64,000 bases of DNA, taken from NCBI RefSeq assembly GCF_021389955.1, contig NZ_CP089980.1, forward strand, positions 3,715,001 to 3,779,000. The letters run 5' to 3'. The DNA comes from Fulvivirga maritima. Its GTDB lineage: Bacteria; Bacteroidota; Bacteroidia; Cytophagales; Cyclobacteriaceae. Position 1 is the stretch's first letter, and each line of letters begins with the position of its first letter. The position numbers and the translations under genes were made by a program. Below are positions 20,281 through 28,380 of this stretch, one piece after another. The notes beneath the pieces are model-generated. The model was given only the letters and a program-made list of their open reading frames with translations, was not told the origin of the DNA and did no database searches.

Positions 20281-21342
20281 ATGTTCAAAGTTATTATTGC
20301 TATAGGTGTCGTTCTTCTCGTGATCATCCTGTTGACCTTGTTTAGGATTGGCACCTTGGTCAATGTGGTAAAGGGCACCAATAAGGAGAAGGTAGGCTCG
20401 AGTAATAAGATTAATGCGGGGTTGCTACTACTATTTATGTTTGTAGCATTTGGGTTATTCTTTTGGTATTCAATCGTCTATTTTGATGATTATACTTTGC
20501 CTCAGGCATCAGAGCACGCTTCATCGGTTGACTTTGCTTTTTGGCTAACCATGGGCTTGACAGGAGTGGTGTTTGTGGTAACAAATGTTTTACTGTTTAT
20601 TTTCAGTTTTAAATATCAGCACAAAGAAGGTGGCAGAGGTAAATTTTACCCTGATAATACCAAGCTTGAGATTCTATGGACAGTAGTGCCTGCGATTACT
20701 CTTGCTGGTTTAGTGCTTACTGGTCTTAGTGCTTGGAATAATATTACCTCTAAAGCGTCTGATGATGCTGAAGTAGTTGAGGTAATGGGTTATCAGTTTG
20801 CATGGGGTGTAAGATACCCTGGTAACAAAGATGCAGAATTGGGTGCCTACGATTATCGCTTAATTGATGCTTCAAATCAATTTGGTATAGATCTTACAGA
20901 TGAAAACTCTTATGATGACTTTATGCCTTTGGAATTACACTTACCAAAAGGTAAAGAGGTTTTAATGAAAATAAGAGCCAGAGACGTTATACACAGTGTA
21001 TTCATGCCTCACTTTAGAGTGAAAATGGATGCTGTACCTGGTATGCCTACTCATTTTAAATTTACTCCTAATAAAACAACACAGGAGATGAGAGATGAAC
21101 TTGGCGATCCTGAATTCGATTATTTTATTACTTGTACTGAGATTTGTGGAAGAGGTCACTTTTCAATGAAATTGAAAGTTGTAATAGAAGAACCTGAGGC
21201 TTATGAAGCTTGGAAAGCGGAGCAGCCTACTTGGTTAAAATTGAACGAGGACTACCTGGAAAAGGTACCTGCGGAAAAAAGAGAGTTAGCTAAAATTAAA
21301 GCTGGCATAGAAGATAATACTGAAACTGAAGCTTCATTATAA
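20281..21342 (+). CDS. coxB: Cytochrome c oxidase subunit II (CuA subunit)
   Basis: Subunit II of an aa3-type oxidase, 353 residues. An extra N-terminal membrane helix precedes the usual two-helix hairpin. The cupredoxin domain carries the CuA ligand motif CTEICGRGHFSM (Cys285, Cys289, His293, Met296) and the upstream His of HSVFMPHFRVKMD. It accepts electrons from cytochrome c or directly from complex III and passes them to subunit I. No fused cytochrome c domain is present. It follows actF after 35 nt, consistent with a supercomplex operon. Confidence 0.96.
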   Translation: MFKVIIAIGVVLLVIILLTLFRIGTLVNVVKGTNKEKVGSSNKINAGLLLLFMFVAFGLFFWYSIVYFDDYTLPQASEHASSVDFAFWLTMGLTGVVFVVTNVLLFIFSFKYQHKEGGRGKFYPDNTKLEILWTVVPAITLAGLVLTGLSAWNNITSKASDDAEVVEVMGYQFAWGVRYPGNKDAELGAYDYRLIDASNQFGIDLTDENSYDDFMPLELHLPKGKEVLMKIRARDVIHSVFMPHFRVKMDAVPGMPTHFKFTPNKTTQEMRDELGDPEFDYFITCTEICGRGHFSMKLKVVIEEPEAYEAWKAEQPTWLKLNEDYLEKVPAEKRELAKIKAGIEDNTETEASL

Positions 21343-26577: not shown

Positions 26578-26916
26578 ATGCACGCTGAAGAGACATCACA
26601 CGTACAGGTACAACCTGCGGATAAGGATAAAATCCAGAAGATCTGGATAACGGCTGGTATACTTGCCGGGATAACTGTATTAGAATTTATTATAGCCTTT
26701 ACCATTCCTTTGGAAATGGCTACTTTGAGAATAGCTATATTCGTAGCTATGACCATTGTTAAGGCTTTCTATATTGTATCAGAATTTATGCACCTTAAAT
26801 ATGAGACCAAGTCATTAATTTGGTCTATCATAATTCCACTTATTTTTGTGGTATGGATGCTAATTGCTTTCTTGTACGAAGGAATGGCCATTTTCGATGG
26901 TAGGTACTTAAACTAG
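26578..26916 (+). CDS. coxD: Cytochrome c oxidase subunit IV
   Basis: Small membrane subunit of 112 residues with three predicted helices and the family pattern KAFYIVSEFMHLKYE between helices 2 and 3. It matches prokaryotic cytochrome oxidase subunit IV, which stabilises the complex. It is the last of the structural genes and is followed by a strong hairpin at 26939. Confidence 0.9.
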   Translation: MHAEETSHVQVQPADKDKIQKIWITAGILAGITVLEFIIAFTIPLEMATLRIAIFVAMTIVKAFYIVSEFMHLKYETKSLIWSIIIPLIFVVWMLIAFLYEGMAIFDGRYLN

Positions 26917-26938: not shown

Positions 26939-26976
26939 AATAAGGCTAGTGGTATTTTACCCTAGCCTTATTTTAT
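26939..26976 (+). terminator. Strong hairpin terminator inside the oxidase locus
   Basis: An 11-bp stem AATAAGGCTAG / CTAGCCTTATT (26939-26949 and 26962-26972) extended by GGTA/TACC above one bulged T, followed by T-rich sequence. It lies between the last structural subunit gene and the assembly-type genes, only 12 nt before the next start, so it may attenuate rather than stop transcription. Confidence 0.8.
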
Positions 26977-26987
26977 ATTAGAGGGAT

Positions 26988-27512
26988 ATGAACAAATTTG
27001 TTAAAATTGCTTTTCTAATCATCACGCTGGCTATTCCGGTTGTGATATTTTTGTTTTTAAAAATGTTTGGTACTAATAAATTTGATATCCCTGTCTATTA
27101 TCAGGATGAGGGAAGTATTAGTGCTTGTCAGACAGCTAAGGCACCTTTTTATTTACCGGATTCATTGTTTGTAGGTGATAAAGGCCAATTAGCCTTTTTG
27201 TTTGAAGAGGGCATGAGCGATGAAACTCAATTAACTAATCAAATAAACAGGTTGAAGGATAGTTTTAGCGGACAAATGCCGAACTTTGTGGTGTATGCTA
27301 ATTCGCCGGTAAAGCTTGAAGGGGTTAAAACTCAGGTTATGACCAATAGTTATTCCGAGTTATTGCATTGTGGTTACTTAGCAGAAAAATCTAATCAATA
27401 TGTTTTAGTAGATAACCAGAAAAGAATAAGAGGTTATTATGGAACTGATTTAGATGAGCAAGACAGACTTATAGTAGAATTAAAAATTTTAAATGAAAAC
27501 GGAGACAATTAA
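26988..27512 (+). CDS. SCO1/SenC-like protein lacking the copper ligands
   Basis: Membrane-anchored periplasmic protein of 174 residues: one N-terminal helix (5-26), then a small thioredoxin-like domain. The C-terminal run YVLVDNQKRIRGYYGTD followed by a DRLIVELKIL helix matches the end of SCO copper chaperones, and the position in the operon is where a SCO gene normally sits. However the CxxxC motif and the conserved histidine that bind copper are absent; the only cysteines are Cys47 and Cys128. It is probably a non-copper structural or regulatory SCO paralogue in oxidase assembly. The assignment is by eye and moderate. Confidence 0.65.
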   Translation: MNKFVKIAFLIITLAIPVVIFLFLKMFGTNKFDIPVYYQDEGSISACQTAKAPFYLPDSLFVGDKGQLAFLFEEGMSDETQLTNQINRLKDSFSGQMPNFVVYANSPVKLEGVKTQVMTNSYSELLHCGYLAEKSNQYVLVDNQKRIRGYYGTDLDEQDRLIVELKILNENGDN

Positions 27513-28023
27513 TAAAGAGGTAAAGTATAAAAAGTTAATTGTAGCTTTATCTATTGTTATACCTGTAGCAGTAGCTGTTTTATTTAAGGTAAGAATTGAA
27601 GGCTATGACTTTTCATTTTTACCTCCTATTTATGCTGGTATTAATGGCCTTACTGCCATTGGTCTTATAGCTGGTTTAGTAGCTATAAAGCAAAAAAACA
27701 TGAAACTACATGAGACCTTGATGAAAGTTTGCATAGGACTCTCAGCAGCTTTTTTGGTCATGTATGTGGCTTATCATATGACTAGTGATTCTACTGCTTT
27801 TGGAGGAGAAGGAGCCATTAAGTACATATATTATTTTATATTGATTACTCATATATTGCTTTCTATAGCTGTTATACCTTTAGTGCTGTTCACTTTTGTG
27901 AGAGCTTTGTCTGAACGTTTTGATGCTCATAGAAAATTGGCTAAGATTACTTTTCCTATATGGCTATATGTAGCCATTACCGGAGTAGTGGTGTATGTAA
28001 TGATTAGTCCTTATTACACATAA
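27493..28023 (+). CDS. DUF420 membrane protein, oxidase-assembly associated
   Basis: Integral membrane protein of 176 residues with about five helices, of the DUF420 family regularly found beside heme-copper oxidase genes and related to CtaM/YozB assembly factors. Characteristic features are LPPIYAGINGLTAIGLIAG, the intramembrane histidines of KLHETLMK and YVAYHMT, and AHRKLAKITFPIWLYVAITG. It overlaps the SCO-like gene by 20 bp, so the two are probably coupled. Confidence 0.85.
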   Translation: MKTETINKEVKYKKLIVALSIVIPVAVAVLFKVRIEGYDFSFLPPIYAGINGLTAIGLIAGLVAIKQKNMKLHETLMKVCIGLSAAFLVMYVAYHMTSDSTAFGGEGAIKYIYYFILITHILLSIAVIPLVLFTFVRALSERFDAHRKLAKITFPIWLYVAITGVVVYVMISPYYT

Positions 28024-28046: not shown

Positions 28047-28325
28047 ATGATTTCAATGAACAAGCTTATTAAATATTTAGTCCTTCCATCTCTGATGATC
28101 TTGGTTAATATTATTCCTTCATCTGCTCAATGTGCAATGTGTAGGGCTACGGTAGAAAATAATGTGAGTAATGGTGAAATAGGTATTGGTGCTGGGTTAA
28201 ACTTCGGCATATTGTATCTATTTGTTATGCCTTATATCCTGGTTTCTGTAGTGGGATATTTTTGGTATAAAAGAAGCAAAGCTAATGCGAAGGCTGAAGC
28301 AAGTAAAAGACATATCGCTTATTAA
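28047..28325 (+). CDS. Small secreted/membrane protein with CAMC motif (92 aa)
   Basis: A 92-residue protein with a signal peptide ending SSAQ, then a mature N-terminus beginning CAMCRATVENN, a glycine-rich stretch, and one C-terminal helix (about 50-74) followed by a basic tail. The CxxC immediately after the cleavage site would sit in the periplasm next to the membrane. I recognise it as a conserved small protein of Bacteroidota oxidase loci but know no function. The start could also be ATG 28056. Last gene of the respiratory locus. Confidence 0.75.
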   Translation: MISMNKLIKYLVLPSLMILVNIIPSSAQCAMCRATVENNVSNGEIGIGAGLNFGILYLFVMPYILVSVVGYFWYKRSKANAKAEASKRHIAY

Positions 28326-28343
28326 ATAATATTACATTTGGAA

Positions 28344-28380
28344 AAGGAGAAGGTTTATTCAAAGCCTTCTCTTTTTGTTT
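28344..28380 (+). terminator. Terminator at the end of the respiratory locus
   Basis: Stem GAGAAGG / CCTTCTC (28347-28353 and 28365-28371) plus an A/T extension inside, followed by TTTTTGTTTT. It lies 22 nt after the stop of the CAMC protein gene. Confidence 0.85.

Follow-up and report, generated by a model that had tools for sequence, protein, structure and literature searches.

A SCO-derived protein without the SCO copper ligands beside ctaM in the cytochrome oxidase operon of Fulvivirga maritima

Plant HCC2 is a SCO paralog without the copper ligands, and its function is unsettled according to the passages cited here (PMC3971200, PMC6696091). Its existence shows that a SCO may persist without its ligands, and one of these passages, writing of HCC2, treats what such proteins do beyond copper carriage as an open question (PMC6696091). 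A functional link between Sco and CtaM has been proposed, which in the passages cited includes natural Sco-CtaM fusions in planctomycetes (PMC9145763, PMC13344008). CtaM itself is an assembly factor of unsettled role. We found no description of the bacterial form reported below in the literature searched, most subscription journals lying outside the scope of that search.

The window, i.e. the whole stretch of 64,000 nucleotides of F. maritima DNA that was analysed, carries the genes of an aa3-type oxidase downstream of those for alternative complex III. The operon runs coxB-coxA-ctaA-ctaB-cox3-cox3-COX4, followed by the gene of interest, whose product we call pseudo-SCO, and by DUF420/ctaM (Table 1). 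CtaM is the likely partner of pseudo-SCO. For the small protein downstream of ctaM, the Pfam and NCBIfam searches yielded no family above threshold; it is likely the third member of the downstream module. A relative of it was found in 181 of the 197 genomes of the census described below, 180 of them with CxMC, and it is a candidate for an unrecognised copper or thiol factor of the oxidase operon.

Table 1. Features of the oxidase operon and parts of pseudo-SCO (helix and strand positions are from a low-confidence AlphaFold2 model)
Feature	Position	Strand	Remark
Oxidase subunit II (coxB)	20281..21342	+	Intact CuA motif CTEICGRGHFSM; copper site still to be loaded
Oxidase subunit IV (COX4_pro)	26578..26916	+	Last structural gene 5' of the hairpin
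Terminator-like hairpin, COX4/pseudo-SCO gap	26939..26972	+	Folding; recurrence in genus
Pseudo-SCO, a SCO-derived membrane protein without the copper ligands (174 aa)	26988..27512	+	ORF with ATG start
Pseudo-SCO, TM helix	residues about 3-27
Pseudo-SCO, FGxN juxtamembrane motif	residues 27-30
Pseudo-SCO, Cys47	residue 47
Pseudo-SCO, eroded core	residues about 48-125
Pseudo-SCO, Cys128	residue 128
Pseudo-SCO, strand pair VLVD..RIRGYY	residues 139-151
Pseudo-SCO, C-terminal helix	residues about 157-170
DUF420 / CtaM-family membrane protein	27493..28023	+	PF04238, E 2.8e-47; 20-nt overlap with pseudo-SCO gene
Small protein	28047..28325	+	Signal-like segment, then QCAMC motif, one TM-like segment

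The original prediction had described this gene as a SCO-like one in the usual SCO position, with the SCO C-terminal pattern and a strong hairpin upstream, and all of these were borne out. The pattern (VLVD..RIRGYY...DRLIVE.KIL) aligned with that of canonical SCOs. The segment 26917-26987 folded at -18.9 kcal/mol (z -3.45), and one of 200 shuffles was as good. The hairpin was not among the results of a consensus terminator scan of the window. Eleven of the 14 same-genus rows carried a stem of the AAGGCTA/TAGCCTT type in this gap; no such stem occurred in the gap of G012, and in G002 and G006 the gap was distorted by over-extended ORF starts. The hairpin probably lowers the expression of the assembly module, or separates it, relative to the structural genes. 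A tie between hairpin and ligand loss was considered and rejected, a hairpin being found in the gap in 47/92 lost forms (operon genes with none of the SCO ligands) versus 42/75 canonical ones. Another strong terminator-like hairpin was noted 3' of the small gene in the consensus scan (28342-28376), and the ctaM module probably ends there.

The loss of ligands, which had been predicted as well, was clear in the alignment. At the Cys, Cys and His columns of a canonical operon SCO (G035), pseudo-SCO has Gly, Glu and a gap, so that neither the CxxxC copper/redox motif nor the distal histidine of SCO1/SenC is present. The translation contains exactly two cysteines, C47 and C128, which are 81 residues apart and form no TlpA/ResA-type CxxC. 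No Pfam or NCBIfam family, SCO or other, reached its cut-off with this protein, no PDB sequence matched it, and PF02630 gave no match up to E 10. The same profile, up to E 1, matched none of the lost-form or near-relative rows (18/18 and 18/18). At least one lost form, G051, was an exception with a PF02630 match at 5.5e-14; this clear SCO signal suggests that the class boundary is gradual, as expected for a step-wise loss.

The relationship became visible when profiles were compared with profiles. A profile of 28 motif-keeping proteins from the same operon position matched BsSco structures in the PDB (2.8e-36). A second profile, built from 18 near relatives of pseudo-SCO with the anchor included, matched this canonical profile at 99.95%. 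With the anchor removed, the soluble part of the family still matched the operon SCO profile at 99.6% (E 1.1e-24, all such E-values being those of a single pairwise comparison and not of a database). It matched 16 SCOs encoded elsewhere at 97.2% (E 4.7e-11) over 48 C-terminal columns only, and control profiles (reversed, COX4) stayed at 0.2-0.9%. The core segment of the relatives scored 94.4% against operon SCOs versus 1.8% against SCOs encoded in trans. For the shortest members, of 133-156 aa, the match to SCO after removal of the anchor was confined to 38 C-terminal columns. Searched against the PDB, the profile of the 18 near relatives hit no SCO and only two insignificant chains. The profile matches to operon SCOs therefore show descent from an operon SCO, and on this sequence evidence we take pseudo-SCO to be the original SCO of the operon, its copper ligands lost and, probably, copper binding and thiol chemistry with them.

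Structure prediction gave low-confidence models. AlphaFold2 with a two-row input (the window protein and that of L003), run in both orders, reached pLDDT 53.6 and 46.8. The first model (pTM 0.39) had an element order compatible with a thioredoxin fold, and the best Foldseek match of this low-confidence model was BsSco, at a non-significant E of 0.42. The hydrophobic helix of the N-terminal membrane anchor was the best-scoring part (block pLDDT 73-74).

We used DUF420 as the anchor of a census, as it occurred in 134/148 genomes of the order and in 124/128 of the family. Loci of 221 genomes were taken in; at the level of the order, the DUF420-bearing genomes were covered except for roughly 40 of the 134. 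A SCO-like gene stood upstream of ctaM in 197 of the 221, at a distance of 200 nt or less in all but G114; the 24 loci without it are likely explained by contig ends and by DUF420 genes elsewhere. By alignment, 82 of the 197 genes kept Cys-Cys-His, 12 kept both cysteines only, 5 kept one cysteine and 98 kept none. Some rows with wider cysteine spacing (CxxxxC or CxxxxxC) were counted as canonical, and the row of G155 contains a masked run and was used unchanged. All 14 same-genus genomes with the gene, this one included, were ligand-free; a fifteenth (G005) had no match. A tree was built from concatenated oxidase and DUF420 proteins and held 165 of the 197 rows after 32 with too few filled columns had been dropped. 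The label canonical or non-canonical changed 11 times on it, and 200 shuffled labelings gave at least 40 changes. With irreversible loss and a midpoint root, the same tree required 18 losses.

In other orders of the class, all 13 loci taken from a listing of at most 30 had a SCO-like gene upstream of DUF420, ten with CxxxC and His (by pattern) and three without. The motif-less loci (L277, L279 and L284, from G280, G285 and G355) belong to two families, and the gene of G285 retains one Cys near the motif place. These three loci indicate that the loss is wider than Cytophagales. In other classes, such a gene was found in 1 of the 14 loci listed (G354).

The copper site to be served has remained, as the CuA Cys, Cys, His and Met were found in 133/133 subunit II proteins of the fetched loci. 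A link between ligand loss and loss of CuA was rejected on this count. The original prediction had raised the possibility that pseudo-SCO replaces a true SCO or is joined by one encoded elsewhere. A PF02630 search found one canonical SCO in the genome, at C1:1139860 (L001), which is lipoprotein-like and adjoins a cytochrome c gene. The other PF02630 match presumably resembles TlpA. Where the locus shows them, the SCO in trans lies between a similar membrane protein, which we take to resemble HemJ, and the cytochrome c gene; among the loci listed, this cluster was seen in nine of the same genus (e.g. within L255-L273) and in two others.

Replacement of a true SCO is thus unlikely because, among the matches listed, 95 of the 98 lost-form genomes had PF02630 at 1e-19 or better. 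For 86 of the 95 the place was listed and was always outside the oxidase operon; for nine it was not (G095, G184, G188, G211, G223, G229, G233, G247 and G260). The remaining three genomes, with no match (G118), 1.2e-9 (G210) and 7.4e-6 (G241), are all less than 90% complete. On the canonical side, 12 of 82 genomes had a single PF02630 match, which was in the operon for the 11 with a listed place, and G179, one of the 12, is 68% complete. These single-SCO genomes suggest that the ligands were kept where no second SCO was seen. Fisher p for this contrast, which is not corrected for the tree, was 6e-5 without the three weak lost-form genomes and 0.006 with them.

PCuAC was found in 0/58 genomes, this one included, and Caa3_CtaG and Cox11 had no match in this genome, so that these known factors do not account for CuB loading in F. 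maritima. The only candidate for this step seen in the genome was CtaM. A Glu to Lys exchange in the CuA loop, as in CNKICGKGHFGM, was noted in coxB of G217, G218, G192 and relatives (L172, L084, L162), a clade that includes the shortest pseudo-SCOs. The Lys occurred in 21/72 lost forms, 0/49 canonical forms and 1/12 partial ones. In aa3 oxidases, this Glu is presumably in contact with the Mg site as well.

What the lost forms have kept was measured as information by region, expressed as the ratio of the 98 lost forms to the 82 canonical forms. The TM/FGxN segment kept 0.93 and the N-linker 0.61, then values fell to 0.21-0.28 in the thioredoxin core, 0.47 in the second-cysteine strand and 0.15 in the loop to the His, and rose again to 0.63 in the LVD..IRGYY strands and 0.74 in the last helix. 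The median length decreased from 223 aa in canonical forms to 182.5 aa, and 17 of the 98 were shorter than 160 aa. The two ends had been preserved and the middle had eroded.

Our preferred reading, which we hold with slightly more belief than doubt, is that the operon SCO has turned into a ligand-free membrane scaffold beside CtaM and that the SCO in trans handles copper. This reading draws on the homology to SCO, the loss of ligands, the retained ends, the purifying selection described below, the packing against ctaM and the SCO elsewhere in the genome. Copper transfer would have moved to the SCO in trans, and the operon copy would have kept the job of the SCO ends near CtaM. Each retained end may offer a docking surface, the first in the membrane next to CtaM or subunits I/II, the second on the periplasmic face. 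Pseudo-SCO could thereby hold CtaM together with apo-subunit II, or with the SCO in trans as it arrives, and the lipoprotein-like SCO in trans would deliver copper to CuA.

The same ends could instead be those of an accessory subunit that stays permanently in the oxidase, or in the supercomplex which the oxidase forms with alternative complex III, and not those of a transient assembly factor. Accessory subunits are commonly built from one TM anchor and a conserved C-terminal helix, as pseudo-SCO seems to be, and the forms of 133-156 aa resemble such subunits. However, its gene is downstream of the hairpin together with ctaM, apart from the structural genes. Among 20 PDB matches of the canonical operon profile none was named an oxidase subunit, the names being SCO, oxidase assembly, thioredoxin- or peroxiredoxin-like, or a locus name only, although few such complexes have been solved. 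We consider a permanent subunit unlikely.

The original prediction offered a scaffold or a thiol factor, and the two parts fared differently: a scaffold or partner is the best fit, and a thiol factor agrees poorly with two distant cysteines and no CxxC. Under the latter explanation, Cys47 and Cys128 would be a redox pair whose target is subunit II or the SCO in trans. Their conservation across Cytophagales had been put forward as a check; both cysteines were found in 82 of the 98 lost forms and neither in 14. The pair was invariant in 18/18 near relatives, and the Cys47 column was conserved at 82% in lost forms versus 54% in canonical ones, so that conservation is at least at the canonical level, as a redox role would have it. 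However, no CxxxC is formed either, the 14 lost forms do without both, and 53 of 82 canonical operon SCOs hold both cysteines near the same columns alongside CxxxC (with a tolerance of 8 and 6 columns around the reference positions for the extra cysteines), which argues for another job. The presence of the pair in canonical proteins also means that it is not a leftover of the active site. Both or neither were present in 194/197 genes (Fisher p 3e-42, not tree-corrected), and correction for the tree left five independent pairs (p 0.25), the co-occurrence being phylogenetically clustered. A separate pair that also stands beside CxxxC suggests a structural disulfide, and Cys47-Cys128 probably fastens the linker near the N-terminus to the C-terminal half of the protein. 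Thiol chemistry is accordingly an unlikely explanation.

It might also be assumed that pseudo-SCO is a decaying relic, its frame kept only through translational coupling to ctaM and its product irrelevant. The overlap with ctaM, the progressive shortening to 133 aa and the loci without an upstream SCO-like gene would agree with this, and 87/98 lost-form genes overlap ctaM or stand within 10 nt of it. The corresponding count is 60/82 in canonical forms, with ctaM starts taken as first start codons and possibly over-extended, and the overlap is common to both classes and not specific to the lost one. Selection speaks against a relic. The one relative found among named genomes was that of Fulvivirga sediminis (75% identity). 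Of nine pairs compared, four yielded a dN/dS value: 0.157 for the pair with G006, a F. sediminis-like genome, and 0.154, 0.108 and 0.231 for the others. ctaM was lower in each of the same four (0.023, 0.093, 0.013 and 0.176). Values of 0.11-0.23 indicate purifying selection, which is not expected of a decaying relic, and the anchor region has kept 93% of the canonical information. We therefore regard a relic as improbable. That copper is bound and passed on via new ligands is very hard to believe, for although two Cys and some Met and His are present, no column of at least 1.5 bits besides the Cys pair and the initiator Met had His, Met or Cys as the commonest residue (98 lost forms, columns present in the reference G035).

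Returning to the scaffold reading, we tentatively suggest, with some more doubt than belief, that SCOs in oxidase operons have repeatedly become copper-free docking proteins for CtaM and the nascent oxidase, both within Cytophagales and in two or more further families of the class. If this is true, the non-copper job of SCO would fall to the TM/FGxN segment together with the C-terminal strand-helix, and the extreme members of 133-156 aa would keep that job without a thioredoxin fold. About 100 bacterial SCO-derived proteins, from near-full-length forms to 133-aa remnants, are a natural series at one operon position beside CtaM. Such a series shows which parts of SCO are retained once copper handling is dropped, and mutants would be testable in bacteria.

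A close counterpart of pseudo-SCO is the canonical operon SCO of Cytophagales (SCO1/SenC, PF02630), which shares the position upstream of ctaM, the N-terminal TM, FGxN, the C-terminal LVD..RIRGYY..EVDRLI.E.KIL and often the same extra Cys pair. In contrast to it, the lost forms are without CxxxC and His, their core is eroded and their median is about 40 aa shorter. Plant HCC2 is similar in that CxxxC and His are absent and a ligand-bearing SCO is present in the same organism. However, as far as the sources cited describe it, HCC2 is eukaryotic and mitochondrial, whereas pseudo-SCO is bacterial, lies in the oxidase operon next to ctaM, belongs to a form with repeated loss and carries a Cys pair. 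Sco of Bacillus subtilis (YpmQ) binds copper according to the passages cited (PMC9145763, PMC13344008), whereas pseudo-SCO stands beside CtaM without the SCO copper site. A ligand-free partner in this place would fit the docking of an incoming chaperone or of apo-subunit II.
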